Assembly (NCBI RefSeq): GCF_012926505.1 | Contig: NZ_JABBNT010000002.1 | Span: 372,001 to 436,000, forward strand | Reading direction: 5' to 3' | DNA length: 64,000 bases | Source: Pacificispira spongiicola | Lineage (GTDB): Bacteria; Pseudomonadota; Alphaproteobacteria; UBA8366; Aestuariispiraceae | Shown here: positions 8,676 through 54,108 of the stretch, piece after piece | Layout of the letters: each line of letters opens with the position of its first letter | How positions within the stretch are numbered: position 1 is the stretch's first letter | The notes under the pieces: generated by a model | Seen by the model: the letters and a program-made list of their open reading frames with translations, nothing else | Database searches by the model: none | What the model was told of the DNA's origin: nothing | Translations under genes and position numbers: made by a program

Positions 8676-10286
8676 ATGACGCTGATTACCCCGGATGAAA
8701 TTCAAGGCGCCGCGCCCTCTTCCGCATCGCCTACACCGGCCTTGGCCGATACCGGCGGTAGTCGTCGTCGCGGCGGTCGTCTCGCCCGCCAGGCCTTGCG
8801 CGCGGCACCGTTGACAGACGACATCCGCCCGGTACGGCCCGGCATGGAAGGCGGGCACTATCAGGTTCTCAACGAGACCGACATTCTGCGCATTCACACT
8901 GCCGCCCTGGAAATCCTGGAAACCGTCGGTCTGGCGGATGCGATCCCGACCTGTATCGAGGCCGTGACGGCCCGCGGCGGGTTCCTGAACGAATATGGGC
9001 GTCTGTGCATCCCGCGCGCGCTGGTCGAGGACACCCTGGCCATCGCGGCGCGGAAATTCGTGCTGCATGGGCAGGACCCGCGCCACGACATGGAACCCTG
9101 GGGCAAGAAGGTTTATTTCGGCACCGCGGGCGCGGCCGTTCATATTGTCGATCCCGTCACCAGGAAATACCGCGAATCCACGACGCGCGACCTCTACGAC
9201 ATCGCACGATTGGTCGACGCGATGGATCATATCCATTTTTTCCAGCGGTCCGTCGTGTGCCGGGATCTGCCGGACCCGTTCGAAATGGATTTCAACACAT
9301 GCTACGCCTCCGTCCGGGGCACATCGAAACATGTCGGCAGCAGTTGGGTCCATCCGGACCATTTCGACGCGTCGCTGGAAATGCTGCACATGATTGCGGG
9401 CGGCGAGGATAAATGGCGCGCGCGTCCCTTCGTCAGCATGTCCAACTGCTTCGTCGTCCCGCCGATGAAATTCGCGGAAGATGCCTGCCGCTGCCTGGAA
9501 TCGGCGGTCAAGGGCGGCATGCCGATCCTGTTGCTGGCCGCCGGACAGGCCGGGGCGACCAGTCCCGCCTCCTTGGCCGGCGCCGTTGTCCAGGAAGTGG
9601 CGGAAGTTCTCGCCGGTCTGGTTTATGTCAATGCGTTGAAACCGGGCCATCCCTGCATCTTCGGGACATGGCCTTTCGTATCGGACCTGCGAACGGGGGC
9701 GATGTCGGGCGGCAGCGGCGAACAGGCCTTGCTGATGGCGGCCTGCGCGCAAATGGCCAATTTCTACGACCTGACGGGCGGTGTCTGCGCGGGAATGGCG
9801 GATTCGAAAATCCCAGACGCCCAGGCCGGATACGAAAAGGGCTACAACTATGCGCTCGTCGGCAATTCGGGGGCCAATCTGGTGTACGAATCCGCCGGTA
9901 TGCATGCCAGCCTGCTGGGATTCTGCCTGGAAAGCGTCCTGATGGACAATGACGCGATCGGGGCCAGTCTGCGCACAGTACGCGGGATCGAAACCGACGA
10001 CGATTCCCTGTCCGTCGAAACCATCCGGCAGGTCTGCATCGAGGGGCCGGGGCATTATCTTGGGCACAGCCAGACCATTGGGCGGATGCAGAAGGATTAC
10101 GTCTATCCGCTGGTCGGTGACCGGACGAGCCCCAAGGAATGGGTGGAAGGCGGATCGACGACCATCATCGACCGCGCCGTCAAGAAAACCGCGGAACTGC
10201 TGCGCACTCACCATCCGTCCCACATTTCCGACGCCGTCGATGCGGAAATCCGGGCGAAATTCCCGGTTGGCCTGAATTTGCAGTGA
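8676..10286 (+). CDS. MttB-family (non-pyrrolysine) methyltransferase
   Basis: 536 residues of the trimethylamine methyltransferase MttB superfamily (landmarks ILETVGLADAIPTCIEA, SMSNCFVVPPMKFAED, MADSKIPDAQAGYEKGYN). The frame has no internal TAG, so this is not a pyrrolysine enzyme. Non-Pyl members such as MtgB demethylate glycine betaine or related quaternary amines and pass the methyl group to a corrinoid protein. No corrinoid protein or MtgA-like partner lies next to it, so the substrate is open. The first ~45 residues are low-complexity (PSSASPTPA, GSRRRGGR). GAAGGA precedes the ATG. A divergent LysR gene lies upstream. Confidence 0.88.
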   Translation: MTLITPDEIQGAAPSSASPTPALADTGGSRRRGGRLARQALRAAPLTDDIRPVRPGMEGGHYQVLNETDILRIHTAALEILETVGLADAIPTCIEAVTARGGFLNEYGRLCIPRALVEDTLAIAARKFVLHGQDPRHDMEPWGKKVYFGTAGAAVHIVDPVTRKYRESTTRDLYDIARLVDAMDHIHFFQRSVVCRDLPDPFEMDFNTCYASVRGTSKHVGSSWVHPDHFDASLEMLHMIAGGEDKWRARPFVSMSNCFVVPPMKFAEDACRCLESAVKGGMPILLLAAGQAGATSPASLAGAVVQEVAEVLAGLVYVNALKPGHPCIFGTWPFVSDLRTGAMSGGSGEQALLMAACAQMANFYDLTGGVCAGMADSKIPDAQAGYEKGYNYALVGNSGANLVYESAGMHASLLGFCLESVLMDNDAIGASLRTVRGIETDDDSLSVETIRQVCIEGPGHYLGHSQTIGRMQKDYVYPLVGDRTSPKEWVEGGSTTIIDRAVKKTAELLRTHHPSHISDAVDAEIRAKFPVGLNLQ

Positions 10287-10330
10287 AATGTTGCGCCGAC
10301 ACCGGCGAGACGATATGACCACCCCCGTCA

Positions 10331-10455
10331 CTTGGGGAGTAGCCGACCGTTCCCATCCCAGTGCGGATCATGGAACGGGCCTTCGCGTCAACATACTCGG
10401 TCCTCAGACCGTGGTGCGAAGGGAGCGATCGGACAGATCGTTCGGGCGAGACCGA
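10331..10455 (+). promoter_or_regulatory. yybP-ykoY manganese riboswitch
   Basis: The leader before the TMEM165-type gene shows the conserved parts of the yybP-ykoY aptamer in order: TTGGGGAGTAGC at 10333-10344, GTCAACATACTC at 10387-10398, and GGGCGAGACC at 10444-10453, which closes the basal helix. This RNA class senses Mn2+ and in proteobacteria commonly controls UPF0016/TMEM165 and MntP exporters. The motif and the downstream gene support each other. Its presence also shows that the open frame upstream of 10553 is leader, not protein. Confidence 0.88.
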
Positions 10456-10497
10456 TGACATCGGCTTTCCGCACCGGCTGGGCGGGGGAGACGATGT

Positions 10498-10529
10498 CGT
10501 TGGATCGTTCGAAACACGATCGTTCAACG
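10498..10529 (+). promoter_or_regulatory. Riboswitch expression-platform hairpin
   Basis: CGTTG-GATCGT (10498-10508) can pair with ACGATC (10516-10521) and CAACG (10525-10529), leaving a three-base bulge. No T-run follows. The hairpin sits just before the GGAG Shine-Dalgarno at about 10539, so control of translation fits better than termination. Confidence 0.55.
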
Positions 10530-45490: not shown

Positions 45491-45508
45491 ATGCTTGACG
45501 GTAAGCAT
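45491..45508. promoter_or_regulatory. Operator copy 2: ATGCTT-N6-AAGCAT
   Basis: ATGCTTGACGGTAAGCAT contains the -35 hexamer TTGACG of the transposase promoter, so a bound protein would block RNA polymerase. Both half-sites are identical to copy 1 at 43047-43064. Confidence 0.7.
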
Positions 45509-45523
45509 AAAAGTTCATATATT
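45495..45523 (+). promoter_or_regulatory. Transposase promoter, apparently leaderless
   Basis: TTGACG (45495-45500) and TATATT (45518-45523) are 17 bases apart. The expected start of transcription is at about 45530, exactly the A of the transposase ATG, so the message should have no leader. Confidence 0.65.
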
Positions 45524-45529
45524 AGGGAC

Positions 45530-46423
45530 ATGAACAAATTGCCCCTGCATAAGCGCGTGATGATCCTGAACCTTCTTGTGGAGGGTTCGTCCATGCGGTC
45601 GATCAGCCGGACGGTCGGAGTGTCGATCAACACCGTGACCAAGCTGCTGGTCGAGGCTGGGGAAGCCTGCGCTGCCTATCACGATGAAGCGGTGCGCAAC
45701 GTGAAAGCCGCGCGCGTTCAGTGCGACGAAATCTGGTCATTCTGCTATGCTAAGGAAAAGAACGTCGCGACCGCGAAGGCTGCGCCGGATGGTGCGGGAG
45801 ACGTGTGGACGTGGACAGCGATAGACAGCGATAGCAAGATGATCCTGGCCTATGAGGTCGGTGATCGTTCTGCGGCTACCGCTATCGAGTTCATGGACGA
45901 CCTGCGGGCTCGTCTGGCAAACCGGGTGCAGCTTACGACGGACGGCCACAAGGCGTATCTGGAAGCCGTGGAAGGCGCGTTCGGTGGCGACGTGGATTTC
46001 GCCCAGCTTGTGAAGCTGTACGGCGAAAGCACCGACGGAAAGCGCCACGAGAAGAAATACAGCCCAGCCGAATGCACAGGCACTAAGAAGCGCGTTGTGG
46101 AAGGTAAGCCGGACATGAAGGCGGTCAGCACGTCTTACGTGGAGCGGCAGAACCTAACGATGCGTATGGGGATGCGCCGGTTCACTCGCCTGACCAACGG
46201 GTTCAGCAAGAAGCTGGAAAACCACCTGCACATGCTCAGCCTGTACTTCGTCCACTACAACTTTGTGCGCATCCACAAGAGCCTAAAAGTCACCCCGGCG
46301 ATGGCGGCGGGTGTTGCGGATACGCTTCATGATATGGAGTGGATCGTTTCGCTAATTGATGCCCGCGCGCCGAAACCAGGGCCGCGTGGACCGTACAAGA
46401 AAAACTTATCCGAGCCCGAGTAA
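45530..46423 (+). CDS. IS1-family DDE transposase
   Basis: 297 residues in one frame, without the InsA/InsB frameshift of classical IS1. An N-terminal HTH (LVEGSSMRSISRTVGVSINT) is followed by the catalytic domain with Asp66 (QCDEIWSFC), Asp138 (TTDGHKAYLE) and Glu205 (SYVERQNLTMRM). TRLTNGFSKKLENH also fits the family. A longer frame begins at the ATG of operator copy 2 (45491), but MNKLPLHKR at 45530 matches the family start. AGGGA is only one base from that ATG, in line with a leaderless message. Confidence 0.95.
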   Translation: MNKLPLHKRVMILNLLVEGSSMRSISRTVGVSINTVTKLLVEAGEACAAYHDEAVRNVKAARVQCDEIWSFCYAKEKNVATAKAAPDGAGDVWTWTAIDSDSKMILAYEVGDRSAATAIEFMDDLRARLANRVQLTTDGHKAYLEAVEGAFGGDVDFAQLVKLYGESTDGKRHEKKYSPAECTGTKKRVVEGKPDMKAVSTSYVERQNLTMRMGMRRFTRLTNGFSKKLENHLHMLSLYFVHYNFVRIHKSLKVTPAMAAGVADTLHDMEWIVSLIDARAPKPGPRGPYKKNLSEPE

Positions 46424-49076: not shown

Positions 49077-49211
49077 GTGGCCGAGCCCCCCCATAAAGAA
49101 ACCGCGCTGATCGTCGGCGCGGGGCCGGTCTGCGGCCCTGGGTCGAACGGTTCTGAGCGCGCCGTGTCACCGCAATTCTCGCGTTTTGGCGTTGTACTTC
49201 CGCTTCTTTGA
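49077..49211 (+). pseudogene. Truncated SDR remnant
   Basis: A GTG start four bases after the GST stop reads AEPPHKETALIVGAGP, the N-terminus and nucleotide-binding start of a short-chain dehydrogenase. The similarity ends after about 17 residues and the frame stops at 49211 with unrelated residues. The rest of the gene has been lost, apparently in a rearrangement that brought in the CGNR gene. Confidence 0.5.
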
Positions 49212-49730
49212 CTGGTTGCCGCATCGCGACATACTGCACCATCGACGTTTTCCGGGGCGAGACCGATCGACGAATAGAACGGAACAATCGTCCGACGCGC
49301 AGCGTTTCATTTTTTCCAGTTCCGGTCCCGCCAACAAGTCGACGGCATCCCGGGCTATTTCCCCCAGCGCGGCTTCCAACGTAGTTCCCTGGTTCGATGT
49401 TAGGGTCCGGCCATCCTTTGCCAATTGCGGCGGCGAAGCCTGAATAGCCGCGTATCGGTTCACCACGTCGATATCCTCCGCCGCCGGAACACGGCCCGCA
49501 AAAACGGTGTCCGCCACGCGGCACAATGCGTTCCGAAGCCCCAGAACCACCGATAAATCATGTGCCGACAGCGGTTCCGGGATCGGGTAGCGCGCCACGG
49601 TTCGGAACCACGCCGTCGCTGCCGCCGTGTCAGGCAATCTCTCCAAACCGTCGCCGCCCCGGTCGCCGAGCGTGGCGATCAAGTCCAGGGAGGGACGCCC
49701 TGTTTCAGTATGAAAATCCATGTCCGACAT
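49167..49730 (-). CDS. CGNR zinc-finger/ABATE domain protein, putative regulator
   Basis: 187 residues. An N-terminal ABATE domain (RPSLDLIATLGDRG, LSVVLGLRNALCRVADTVF) is followed by a C-terminal CGNR zinc finger: KRCASDDCSVLF and WCSMSRCGNQSKKRKY, giving four cysteines. Such proteins are thought to bind DNA. AAGGAGG lies five bases before the ATG at 49730. It is divergent from a hydrolase across two GGTGCCA palindromes that it probably binds. Confidence 0.88.
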   Translation of the reverse strand: MSDMDFHTETGRPSLDLIATLGDRGGDGLERLPDTAAATAWFRTVARYPIPEPLSAHDLSVVLGLRNALCRVADTVFAGRVPAAEDIDVVNRYAAIQASPPQLAKDGRTLTSNQGTTLEAALGEIARDAVDLLAGPELEKMKRCASDDCSVLFVDRSRPGKRRWCSMSRCGNQSKKRKYNAKTRELR

Positions 49731-49750
49731 CCCTGCCTCCTTCACAAAAA

Positions 49751-49811
49751 ATTGGCACTAGTATAATCGGTGCCAATTGGTTAGTCTATGGCACCTATTT
49801 AACTGGTGCCA
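49751..49811. promoter_or_regulatory. Double palindromic operator between CGNR gene and hydrolase
   Basis: ATTGGCAC/GTGCCAAT at 49751-49758 and 49770-49777 (11-base spacer), and TGGCACC/GGTGCCA at 49789-49795 and 49805-49811 (9-base spacer). Four copies of one half-site, GGTGCCA or GTGCCAA, span 61 bases. TATAAT (49762-49767), a likely -10 for the hydrolase gene, lies inside the first palindrome. Confidence 0.75.
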
Positions 49812-49827
49812 AACGAGGAAACATCAA

Positions 49828-50712
49828 ATGCCCCATGCTACGCCCTGGATCGAATTCACGCGCACGACTGTCGAAACGGAACATGGACCGCTTTATGTCC
49901 GGCGTGCGGGGTCCGGACAACCGCTACTGTTGCTGCATGGTTTTCCGCAGACCGGACACACATTTCGGATGATTGCACCGGCCCTGTCTGCGCATTTCGA
50001 CGTTTTCGTTCCCGACCTGCCTGGTTACGGCAAAAGTCCGGGACCGGAATCGAACGAGGATGGGACGCCCTATGACAAACGGTCTGTCGCTCGCACCATG
50101 GCCGCAATGATGACGGAATTCGGGGCGGACCGCTTTCTGCTTGTCGGTCACGACCGGGGCGCGCGGGTCGCATACCGCATCGCCCTCGACATGCCGGAAA
50201 AGGTTGCGGCCCTTGTCAGCCTCGACACGGTTCCCACAATCGCCGTTTGGGACGGCATGACCTATGAGAAAGCAATCTCCGCGTTTCACTGGCCGTTCCT
50301 CGCCCGAGAGAAATCATTAACCGAACCGGTATTGGCCCGTGCATCGGACATCTTGATTGGGAGTTTCTTGGATGCTTGGGCCCATATTCCGCTGGCCGAC
50401 GATGCGCGCGAACGCTACCTGTCCGCCTATCGTAACCCGGCGGTTCAGGTCGGCGCTTGCGCGGATTATAGAGCCGGTGCCGGACCGGACATCGCGGCGG
50501 ACCGGGACGACGTTGCCGCGGGCCGCATGATCCAATGCCCTGTGCTTGTTCCCTATGGACGGTACTACACCCAAACCGACCCCGCACCGGCTTGGGCTTC
50601 GTTCGCGCAAGACGTTCGATCGATTGCCATCGATTGCGGCCATTTCCTATCCGAAGAAGCCCCCGAGGCACTGTTGCCCTTGCTTATGCGGTTTCTGCAA
50701 GATCCACGATAA
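49828..50712 (+). CDS. Alpha/beta hydrolase, haloacetate dehalogenase-like
   Basis: 294 residues. The oxyanion/halide region is LLLLHGFPQTGHTF, the nucleophile is Asp in LVGHDRGARVAYRIALDMP, and the catalytic His lies in DCGHFLSEEAPE. An Asp nucleophile in GHDRG is the mark of haloacetate and fluoroacetate dehalogenases and some epoxide hydrolases. AGGA lies eight bases before the ATG. It is controlled, by inference, by the divergent CGNR protein. The substrate is not proven. Confidence 0.85.
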   Translation: MPHATPWIEFTRTTVETEHGPLYVRRAGSGQPLLLLHGFPQTGHTFRMIAPALSAHFDVFVPDLPGYGKSPGPESNEDGTPYDKRSVARTMAAMMTEFGADRFLLVGHDRGARVAYRIALDMPEKVAALVSLDTVPTIAVWDGMTYEKAISAFHWPFLAREKSLTEPVLARASDILIGSFLDAWAHIPLADDARERYLSAYRNPAVQVGACADYRAGAGPDIAADRDDVAAGRMIQCPVLVPYGRYYTQTDPAPAWASFAQDVRSIAIDCGHFLSEEAPEALLPLLMRFLQDPR

Positions 50713-51656: not shown

Positions 51657-52907
51657 ATGGGGTTGAATTCGATTGCGACGGTCGGACGTGCCCGGCAGGC
51701 CCGGCAACACGGCGCCATGGAATATTCCGACGCGCCGGTCGATCTGGACATATTGCGCGGCTATCGCCTGAACCGGCTGCGCGACGCCCTGAAAGCCGGG
51801 GATTATGCAGGCGGTCTTTTCTTCAACCAGCTCAATACCCGTTACGCGACCGACGCGACGAATATGCAGGTCTGGTGCGCCCATTACGAGGCCCGCTGCG
51901 TCTTCGTTTCCACCGAAGGACCGGTCGTCCTGTTCGACTACTCGAACCACCCGCATCTGGCGGAAGACCTGCCCGGTGTCGACGAATATCGGGTTATCCC
52001 CGCCTTCTATTTCTTCACCGCGGGAACGCGCGGGGAAGAACGCGTCCAACTCTTCGCCGATCAGATCGCCGACCTTGTGGCGAAACACGGCGGCGGCAAC
52101 CGTCGGATCGCGGTCGACCACCTGTCGCTCATGGGCGCGGAAGCCCTGCGCGACCGGCAGGTCAGCCTGCATGACGGCGAAGGTCTGGCAGAAGTCGCGC
52201 GATCGATCAAATCACCGGAAGAACTGGTCCTGATGAAAGCGTCCATGGATGTCTGCGAACAGGGTATCCGCGAAATGCGGGAGATTCTGGAACCCGGCAT
52301 CACGGAAAACGCCCTTTGGGCGAAACTGCATGAAGTGAATATCCGCCTGGGCGGGGAATGGATCGAAACGCGGCTACTGTCGTCCGGCCCGCGCACCAAT
52401 CCCTGGTTTCGCGAATGTTCCATGCGACCGATCGAACGCGGCGACATGGTGAGTTTCGACACCGACCTGATCGGACCATACGGCTATTGTTCGGATATCT
52501 CCCGCGCCTGGATTTGCGGCGACAAACCCAATGACGAACAACGCCGCCTTTATTCGAAAGCCTATGAGCAGATCGAACACAATATCGCACTGTTGGGGCC
52601 GGGTCGGTCTTTCCGAGACGTGACACACGAGGCATGGGCGATCCCGGAAGAATTCCTGTCCAACCGCTACAGCAGTTGCATGCACGGTGTCGGGCTGGCC
52701 GACGAGTATCCGTCGATCAAGCATGCCGCCGATTTCGACCTGAAGGGCTACGACGGCGTTTTCGAACCGGGCATGGTCGTCTGCGTCGAAAGCTTCATCG
52801 GTACCGCAGGCGGTCGGGAAGGCGTTAAGCTGGAAGAACAGGTCGTCATCACCGAAACCGGCATCGAACGGCAATCGACCTATCCGTTCGAAATGGATTG
52901 GCTTTAA
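51657..52907 (+). CDS. dddP: DddP-type DMSP lyase (M24 fold)
   Basis: 416 residues of the M24 creatinase/aminopeptidase fold. The metal ligands are Asp268, Asp270, Asp280, His343, Glu378 and Glu393. From memory of the characterised DddP (295, 297, 307, 371, 406, 421) all fall at a constant offset of 27-28, and the reported catalytic Tyr366 and Asp377 correspond to Tyr338 and Asp349 here. The segment GGEWIETRLLSSGPRTNPWF is nearly unchanged. DddP cleaves dimethylsulfoniopropionate to dimethyl sulfide and acrylate. GGGGAGAGAG lies before the ATG. No other ddd gene is adjacent. Confidence 0.82.
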   Translation: MGLNSIATVGRARQARQHGAMEYSDAPVDLDILRGYRLNRLRDALKAGDYAGGLFFNQLNTRYATDATNMQVWCAHYEARCVFVSTEGPVVLFDYSNHPHLAEDLPGVDEYRVIPAFYFFTAGTRGEERVQLFADQIADLVAKHGGGNRRIAVDHLSLMGAEALRDRQVSLHDGEGLAEVARSIKSPEELVLMKASMDVCEQGIREMREILEPGITENALWAKLHEVNIRLGGEWIETRLLSSGPRTNPWFRECSMRPIERGDMVSFDTDLIGPYGYCSDISRAWICGDKPNDEQRRLYSKAYEQIEHNIALLGPGRSFRDVTHEAWAIPEEFLSNRYSSCMHGVGLADEYPSIKHAADFDLKGYDGVFEPGMVVCVESFIGTAGGREGVKLEEQVVITETGIERQSTYPFEMDWL

Positions 52908-52928: not shown

Positions 52929-53240
52929 TCAGCGTAGGGACAGATCCTTCGCCATCCAATCGAGATAGCCCCGGATCGCAGCGTCGTCCCGTTTGCAGTA
53001 GGACCATTTCAGGTGTTTTCGGACCGTGATGAAGCCTGCCTGCCGCAGAATGTCCAGGTGTCGGCTGACCGTCGGCTGTGAAATGGACAAGGCCTCCGCA
53101 ATCATTGTCATGCAGACGCCGAATTCCACGGGGTCGGCGGACCATTGATGACCGAAATGCCGTCCCGGATCCGACAGGAGACGCAATACCTCCAACCGGG
53201 TGTCGCTGGCCATGGCTTTTATTTGCATTGATCGATCCAT
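52929..53240 (-). CDS. ArsR-family regulator
   Basis: 103 residues, one winged HTH: MASDTRLEVLRLLSDPG, then AEALSISQPTVSRHLDILRQ and AGFITVRKHLKWSYCKRDD. No CxC metal site of the ArsR/SmtB type is seen, so it probably senses something other than metal. It is divergent from a hydrolase gene, with a perfect AATTAGCTAATT palindrome between. Confidence 0.9.
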   Translation of the reverse strand: MDRSMQIKAMASDTRLEVLRLLSDPGRHFGHQWSADPVEFGVCMTMIAEALSISQPTVSRHLDILRQAGFITVRKHLKWSYCKRDDAAIRGYLDWMAKDLSLR

Positions 53241-53289: not shown

Positions 53290-54108
53290 ATGCTTGAGCT
53301 TCCGAACACGTCGATCATCGAGGGCAATGCCGTTCGCTGGGGCAAAATCGGCAACGGCCCGCCGCTTGTCGCCATTCACGGAACACCGTTTTCCGCGCAG
53401 GTCTGGCGGCGGATCGTGCCGCATCTGACCGACCGAAGGACCGTCTACTTCTTCGACCTTGTCGGATACGGACAGTCGGAAATGCGATCGAAACAGGACG
53501 TATCCCTGGCCGTCCAGAACCGGGTGCTGGCCGCCTTGTTCAAAGAATGGGGCCTCTCACGCCCCGACATTCTGGCGCATGACTTCGGCGGCGCAACGGC
53601 CCTGCGGGCCTATTATCTGAATGGATTACGGTATGCCTCGCTGACGATTTTCGATGCCGTCGCTCTTGCGCCCTGGGGATCGCCCCTGGTCCAGCATGTG
53701 CGGCAGCATGACGCCGCGTTTTCCGGCATGCCGGATTACATGCATCGCGCATTGCTGCGGGCCTATCTGCAGACGGCGGCACATATGCCCCTGTCGGAAG
53801 AAGCATTGGATATTTATAGCGCACCGTGGCTCGGCCCCGTCGGACAACCGGCTTTCTATCGTCAAATTGCGCAGATGGACCAGAAATTCACCGATGAGAT
53901 CGAGGGCCTGTACAACCGTTTGGACTGCCCCGTTCGCGTTCTTTGGGGCGTGGAGGACGACTGGATTCCCTATGCCAAGGGGGAAACGCTGGCGGCAGCG
54001 ATTTCCGACCTGCCTTGCACGCCAATTCCCGGCGCGGGGCACCTCGTCCAAGAGGACCGGCCGGAAGCAATTGTCGCCGCGGTGCTGAAGGCAATCGCCG
54101 CCGGATAA
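53290..54108 (+). CDS. Alpha/beta hydrolase, haloalkane-dehalogenase-like
   Basis: 272 residues. LVAIHGTPFSAQVWRRIVP forms the oxyanion region; Asp in LAHDFGGATALRAYYL is the nucleophile, and His in IPGAGHLVQEDRPE closes the triad. An Asp nucleophile excludes a simple esterase and points to a dehalogenase or epoxide hydrolase. It is the second such enzyme within 4 kb, each facing its own regulator. Its start lies 21 bases after the ArsR-type palindrome. Confidence 0.85.
   Translation: MLELPNTSIIEGNAVRWGKIGNGPPLVAIHGTPFSAQVWRRIVPHLTDRRTVYFFDLVGYGQSEMRSKQDVSLAVQNRVLAALFKEWGLSRPDILAHDFGGATALRAYYLNGLRYASLTIFDAVALAPWGSPLVQHVRQHDAAFSGMPDYMHRALLRAYLQTAAHMPLSEEALDIYSAPWLGPVGQPAFYRQIAQMDQKFTDEIEGLYNRLDCPVRVLWGVEDDWIPYAKGETLAAAISDLPCTPIPGAGHLVQEDRPEAIVAAVLKAIAAG

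Follow-up and report, generated by a model that had tools for sequence, protein, structure and literature searches.

The 64,000-nucleotide stretch of Pacificispira spongiicola DNA considered here (contig NZ_JABBNT010000002.1, positions 372,001 to 436,000; hereafter the window) contains a divergent gene pair in which a putative regulator of the ABATE-CGNR family and an alpha/beta-hydrolase point away from each other across a 97-bp gap, and this gap carries two copies of a palindrome that is a candidate operator of the regulator. The regulator gene lies on the minus strand (49167..49730), and the hydrolase gene, which is fluoroacetate-dehalogenase-like, lies on the plus strand and begins with ATG (49828..50712). 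The regulator reading frame as listed covers 49167-49745 and can be read from a GTG at 49745; the ATG at 49730, preceded by a ribosome-binding-like AAGGAGG (49736..49742, minus strand), is the likelier start. The hydrolase gene has a ribosome-binding-like GAGGA at 49815..49819 (plus strand). The original prediction, made from the letters of the window, had placed a CGNR/ABATE protein opposite a dehalogenase, and the protein assignment was borne out: both Pfam models score well over their cut-offs (ABATE, 72.2 bits against 24.4, 8e-20; zf-CGNR, 59.7 bits against 24, 2.3e-16), and an alpha/beta-hydrolase gene is indeed divergent to it. Orthologues at 56-57% identity further support the gene, and the four finger cysteines (C144, C149, C165 and C170) are invariant in the family alignment.

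A search with phmmer found no PDB match for the window CGNR protein. A solved relative, Jann_2411 (PDB 3h0n), is described in the available part of its structure paper as an ABATE domain joined to a CGNR zinc finger (PF07336/PF11706), likely dimeric, with a cavity where the two subunits meet and a treble clef that putatively binds DNA; the two fingers of the dimer are reported as likely to form a DNA-binding site, and the authors propose that DNA binding is abolished by ligand, as in LacI or TetR (PMC2954205). A 2009 structure paper is the only title that names the family among the open-licence papers listed. No operator for the CGNR/ABATE/DUF1470 family is named in the titles or abstract starts of these listed papers, and subscription papers may name one.

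The gap carries a single 25-bp palindrome twice, with a GGCACC-N9-GGTGCC core and a distance of 36 bp from start to start. In a common register operator 1 reads TTGGCACTAGTATAATCGGTGCCAA (49752-49776) and operator 2 reads ATGGCACCTATTTAACTGGTGCCAA (49788-49812). At its full extent operator 1 occupies 49750..49778, with perfect 9-bp arms (49750-49758 and 49770-49778) around an N11 spacer; operator 2 (49788..49812) has 7-bp arms (49789-49795 and 49805-49811) around N9 and stops 15 bp short of the start codon of the hydrolase. The claim of two palindromes built from one half-site, with spacers of 11 and 9, therefore holds as to the palindromes, while the spacer difference stems from arm length, since both are TGGCAC-N11-GTGCCA once placed in the common register. 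Likewise, three of the four GGTGCCA half-sites first reported are exact (49769, plus; 49789, minus; 49805, plus), but the fourth reads AGTGCCA, one base off. Counting half-sites was dropped as evidence because GGTGCCA alone is not enriched, occurring 7 times in the window against 8.3 expected. The longer pattern TTGGCAC-N11-GTGCCAA, with at most one mismatch, occurs at two places in the organism's own genome (4.2 Mb, 19 contigs), both in this gap. With up to two mismatches there are nine places genome-wide against 22 for a reversed control pattern, so the other seven two-mismatch places are background; a wider regulon in the genome was set aside, there being no second locus at one mismatch or fewer.

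A consensus scan predicts a promoter for the CGNR gene within the gap (TAGACT-N17-TATACT, 49788-49760, minus strand; 9 of 12 matches), and both hexamers are invariant in three species. Operator 1 spans the -10 of this promoter and most of its spacer, and operator 2 abuts the -35. The scan also gives an overlapping minus-strand pair of equal score, TTGGCA-N18-TAGACT. The TATAAT that had been seen inside a palindrome is present (49762..49767, plus strand), but it overlaps TATACT on the opposite strand, and the better-supported promoter there points towards the CGNR gene. With no plus-strand promoter found in the gap by the consensus scan, TATAAT was set aside as a hydrolase promoter in favor of the overlapping TATACT. 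At five related loci (L009, L010, L013, L046 and L051; L numbers denote individual CGNR or hydrolase loci), a -10-like TAGAAT or TAGAAA was seen by eye 6-7 nt before the CGNR ATG, and these mRNAs may be leaderless.

This CGNR gene was found in three of six genomes of the genus, namely the window genome, G002 and G004, with protein identities to the window protein of 57% (G002) and 56% (G004). The divergent hydrolase is kept as well (62% identity in G002 and 63% in G004), as are both sites and their 36-bp offset in two congeners (L006 and L007). One far arm of operator 1 is TGGAAC in both L006 and L007, a single changed base, and in L006 one arm of operator 2 is changed too. In the three-species alignment, invariant columns run over the half-sites and over both hexamers of the CGNR promoter (-35 TAGACT, -10 TATACT). 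Upstream of eight hydrolase paralogues of the genus (35-42% identity, none beside a detected CGNR match) no N8/N9 site was found, a weak control in that the true orthologue L107, with one arm changed, also gives none by the same strict rule; one paralogue (L115) has an isolated N19 match.

The palindrome of the window belongs to a class of sites, inverted GGT-core half-sites separated by N8/9 or N17-19, that recurs upstream of CGNR genes. ABATE-CGNR regulators are widespread: a match was found in 13 of 59 genomes of relatives, and sampling of the class, the phylum and Actinomycetota gave 34 of 241, 47 of 299 and 16 of 41 genomes with a match, respectively. A stricter finger motif missed 37 of 201 loci and a relaxed version nine. 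From 192 loci, 127 were non-redundant (<60% identity), 87 of them in Pseudomonadota and 40 in Actinomycetota, and for each 290 bp around the gene start was scanned, with dinucleotide shuffles as controls. For an enumeration that presupposed no motif, 13 of 100 loci were removed (C-terminal-only matches, cut contigs, duplicates), and the remaining 87 gave 73 non-redundant loci (48 Pseudomonadota and 25 Actinomycetota). When all inverted 4-mers were enumerated, GGTT-N8-inverted ranked first, in 15 of the 73 loci, against a maximum of 9 for any word in 100 shuffle sets; among 5-mers GGTTA with a gap of 8 was found in six loci against a shuffle maximum of four. In the Pseudomonadota loci, the spacing of NACC-N-GGTN' peaks at N8 (27 loci), N9 (6), N17 (8), N18 (14) and N19 (10), with 0-5 loci at each remaining spacing between 3 and 30 and about 1.2 expected. 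At least one N8/9/18/19 site is present in 53 of these 87 loci; 200 shuffle sets averaged 4.8 such loci and never exceeded 11. The Actinomycetota loci peak at N9 (7 loci) and N17 (10 loci, shuffle maximum 4).

The sites also cluster around the gene start. Their density in Pseudomonadota is highest, at 70 per 100 loci, in a 150-bp bin 450-600 nt ahead of the first finger Cys, which covers the gene start and the DNA upstream of it; all other bins have 1-18, and the summed figure for eight control spacings in the same bin is nine. For reversed GGT-N-ACC no spacing between 3 and 26 gives a comparable peak, each being present in 0-4 of the 48 loci. The letters of the half-sites vary among loci, yet the two arms of one site agree. 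N8 and N18, like N9 and N19, differ by 10 bp, or about one helical turn, and the spacing classes largely track clades of the tree. Long-spacing operators (L039, L042, L043, L057, L065 and others) often have an inner TGTCAA or AGTCAA, perhaps a second contact. Six Actinomycetota loci (L086, L087, L088, L092, L094 and L101) have CSSR-, CSNR-, CANR- or CGNR-RQH-type fingers and by eye mostly do not have a GGT-core palindrome of the main kind; repeated GTCAA and CTTAC words there suggest another operator type. A mechanical rule gave a divergent ORF at 83 of the 87 Pseudomonadota loci, some of them surely spurious; the families represented include Abhydrolase_1 (22), AzlC (9), Glyoxalase (7) and EamA (6), a set that suggests mainly detoxification and transport.

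Base 5 of the half-site varies with one residue of the protein. This residue, X, follows CGNxxK in the last finger helix and would correspond to residue 178 in the numbering used in the available part of the Jann_2411 paper. K at this position pairs with C at base 5 (GGTGCC, GGTTCC), and A or V pairs with A (GGTTAC, GGTTAG, GGTGAC). The window protein is of the K type, CGNQSKK paired with GGTGCC, so that base 5 matches residue X. A profile of six K-type proteins (E 1e-12), which also served to collect loci for the family survey, gave matches in 50 of 385 and 46 of 149 genomes. In the training set, C accompanied K at four of five loci, the fifth being undecided, and was found at one of 57 non-K loci, 14 of these undecided. 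The prediction was recorded before two further genome searches, in which 32 of 396 and 12 of 398 genomes had a match (E 1e-26); a search of 199 plasmid records ran with them, and the prediction record named neither that search nor the scoring rule. Scoring differed between the sets: both arms had to agree in training, which left L059 undecided, and the majority of arms decided later, which scored it C.

The new loci numbered 50, of which four (L255, L262, L268 and L272) had no finger by the motif, leaving 46 held out. Eleven of these, at least 75% identical to training, were set apart; four of the eleven are K with C, including L247, a copy of L059. Among the other 35 a half-site could be called in 21 and not in 14, the 21 including L266, L270 and L274 with identical fingers. 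At these loci <75% identical to training, K went with C in 2 of 2 (L236 and L267) and A or V with A in 15 of 16, the exception being L233 with G, while C was found at 0 of 19 non-K loci. C is likewise present at another three new K loci, which are 79-83% identical to training. In the final set of 92 loci (<75% redundant), 80 were decided: all eight K loci have C, and the 72 non-K loci have A (61), T (7), G (2) or C (2; L104 and L164). These count tables include L007 but not L006 or L100, whose arms do not satisfy the strict rule. The K rows come from a single region of the tree and the paired test is without power, and Fisher p-values for the residue-base association therefore overstate the evidence.

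It is probable, in our judgement, that the locus is a small self-contained divergon, in which a dimeric CGNR repressor would control both its own gene and the divergent hydrolase and be released by a ligand. As binder of the palindromes the CGNR protein, proposed originally, gains support at the level of sequence from four sides: recurrence of the site, variety of the neighbors, co-variation of residue and base, and a solved relative. The same class of palindrome upstream of ABATE-CGNR genes with differing divergent neighbors leaves the CGNR gene as the common factor. In such a scheme the N-terminal ABATE domain would act as dimeriser and likely ligand sensor, the C-terminal treble-clef zinc finger would read DNA, and the dimer would bind the two copies of the palindrome through their GGTGCC half-sites. 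Both genes would most likely be repressed in the resting state. Given operator 1 on the -10 of the CGNR promoter and operator 2 immediately ahead of the hydrolase gene, repression of both promoters and relief by ligand is the simplest mechanism. A small molecule bound to ABATE would free the protein from DNA, and most simply it would be the substrate or product of the hydrolase, a fluoro-/haloacid or an epoxide. The sites and their return in the congeners, the pattern across the family, the spacing classes and the pairing of letter with residue come straight from sequence, whereas we infer binding, repression rather than activation, release by ligand and the identity of the inducer.

Palindromes at divergent promoters are typical of many regulator families, and an ArsR-type gene lies about 3 kb off (52929-53240), so that the palindromes could belong to a TetR-, MarR- or ArsR-type regulator encoded elsewhere, with the CGNR gene a mere adjacent target. 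This is very unlikely given that the palindrome class is found upstream of ABATE-CGNR genes across Pseudomonadota with differing divergent neighbors, peaks only around the CGNR 5' end, and has letters that track the CGNR finger helix. That the palindromes are promoter-associated or driven by composition, with no specific binder, is more improbable still: parts of the sites do overlap promoter hexamers, but dinucleotide shuffles, off-locus bins and the eight control spacings do not reproduce the pattern, reversed GGT-N-ACC has no such peaks, and letters differ from locus to locus while both arms of each site agree. A less remote alternative, though still an unlikely one, is that the CGNR protein binds as an activator or dual regulator rather than a plain repressor. 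Zinc-finger regulators are capable of either action, operator 2 stands upstream of the hydrolase start in a position open to an activator, and no promoter for the hydrolase emerged from the consensus scan. Plain repression is favored by the cover of operator 1 over the CGNR -10 and by several relatives in which, by eye, the site overlaps or closely precedes a -10-like sequence near the start codon, as suits occlusion of polymerase; the Jann_2411 authors likewise suggest, in the part of their paper available, that DNA binding is lost on ligand binding (PMC2954205).

The hydrolase resembles a dehalogenase in homology and active-site residues. Its motifs are GHDRGAR, LDTVPT, HW, DYR and GHF, and we take D109 to be the counterpart of the nucleophile Asp of fluoroacetate dehalogenase. 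Its closest PDB matches by phmmer are the Rhodopseudomonas palustris fluoroacetate dehalogenase chains 5k3d and 3r3u (E ~3e-62), with chains named "probable epoxide hydrolase" close behind (4bat, E 3.8e-57). The hydrolase matches 12 NCBIfam models at E 1e-8, with no fluoroacetate-dehalogenase model among them; none reaches its cut-off, the best being haloalkane dehalogenase at 69 of 241 bits. A fluoride riboswitch is not among the three Rfam matches in the window at gathering scores. The available part of one paper on fluoroacetate dehalogenase names His109, Arg111, Arg114, Asp134, His155, Trp156, Lys181, Tyr219 and His280 (PMC5485738). By alignment to 3r3u and motif positions, and taking the numbering of chain and paper to differ by 2, eight of these residues (all but Lys181) have identical counterparts in the hydrolase: H108, R110, R113, D133, H154, W155, Y214 and H272. 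Lys181 is not kept and is Phe180 in the hydrolase. H154 and Y214 fit the dehalogenase pocket and also the epoxide-positioning His/Tyr pair of Cif-like enzymes, and an epoxide hydrolase subclass is described, in the available part of its source, as having His in place of one Tyr (PMC8244358). The hydrolase might thus be a Cif-like epoxide hydrolase and not a defluorinase, with an epoxide as inducer. This reading, to which the 4bat match also lends itself, was raised slightly by Phe180 and is a possible but still doubtful one; that the nearest solved proteins are fluoroacetate dehalogenases, and that the eight named residues are identical, speaks against it. FAcD-like hydrolases with the same motifs are divergent to the K-type CGNR genes of L006, L007, L024 and L129.

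Several observations weigh against the proposed divergon and its family-wide extension. The attribution of the palindromes to the CGNR protein is drawn from sequence alone, and the scan found no promoter for the hydrolase, one of the two genes to be repressed. The name-giving Arg is absent from the window protein, which has CGNQ (L006 and L007 have CGNR, and L059 has CGDQ); the Pfam score does not require it. The congener locus L006 is itself a miss under the strict arm rule, and by eye the divergent ORFs of the K types L059, L236, L267 and L100 are unlike FAcD. The surveyed loci are the best-scoring matches (up to 30 per survey) plus 51 later stretches and are not a random sample. No N8/9/18/19 site is present at 34 of 87 Pseudomonadota and 27 of 40 Actinomycetota loci; the 13 Actinomycetota loci with such a site are little above shuffles (mean 4.1, maximum 10), and in Pseudomonadota N9 and N17 pass by a small margin the maximum of 5 that shuffles reach at each of these spacings. 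As to the residue-base relation, all K rows group together in the tree: the best tree requires 3-4 changes, a single one of them forced by well-supported branches, and the relation stands as an association, with independent K origins no more than possible. The AlphaFold model is poor (mean pLDDT 56.8, from three sequences), so that X has no more than a presumed place in a complex.

The surroundings of the pair carry other features. A remnant of an SDR gene lies at 49077-49156, with an N-terminal ETALIVGAG directly before a C-terminal GLRPWVERF-stop in another frame, so that the middle has been lost; in L006 and L007 the gene is intact and convergent to the CGNR gene. An IS1-family transposase-like ORF (45491-46423, plus strand; 75.4 bits against an NCBIfam cut-off of 100) lies about 3 kb from the pair. 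On the other side are an M24-family protein resembling the DMSP lyase DddP (51657-52907, plus strand; 414.7 bits, cut-off 600) and, downstream of its gene, the ArsR-type regulator gene, which faces a second alpha/beta hydrolase (53290-54108). Elsewhere in the window are a chrB-a RNA (Rfam RF03078, 42847-42932, minus strand, 67.3 bits), a PYLIS_3 (mttB) Rfam match (9795-9894, plus strand, 44.3 bits), where an in-frame TAG or pyrrolysine context is possible, and a yybP-ykoY manganese riboswitch (10321-10525, plus strand, 61.6 bits).

Of wider reach is an operator pattern shared across the family, coupled with a likely relation between residue and base. It is reasonably probable that the CGNR treble-clef proteins are repressors of a large and uncharted family whose DNA code is simple: dimers would bind inverted half-sites with a GGT core, the arms standing N8/9 or N17-19 apart, a difference of about one helical turn, and base 5 would be read by the residue that follows CGNxxK (K to C, A or V to A, and perhaps T or I to T). 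If the code is true, CGNR operators, and often the target gene too, would be predictable directly from sequence. The operator, the spacing rule and the residue-to-base relation together make the DNA targets of the family testable at once. The window pair is a candidate sensor-enzyme unit for fluoro-/haloacids or epoxides and could be useful as a biosensor.

Among known systems, TetR-tetA is a divergently transcribed repressor-pump pair. As proposed here for the CGNR pair, regulator and target gene in that system face each other across two copies of a palindromic operator, with autoregulation; there, however, the pair consists of a helix-turn-helix protein and an efflux pump, and here of a treble-clef zinc finger protein and a hydrolase. 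On the enzyme side, the R. palustris fluoroacetate dehalogenase (3r3u and others) offers the closest solved relatives, whose catalytic and pocket residues are conserved in the hydrolase, whereas its Lys181 is Phe180 here; titles and abstract starts of the papers listed on this enzyme name no regulator for it. On the regulator side, Jann_2411 shares with the window protein the same two domains and four zinc cysteines and is proposed to be a ligand-sensing transcription regulator, but has CQNR where the window protein has CGNQ. The available part of the Jann_2411 paper names no DNA target, while the window protein and its relatives offer a candidate operator, spacing classes and a pairing of helix residue with base.

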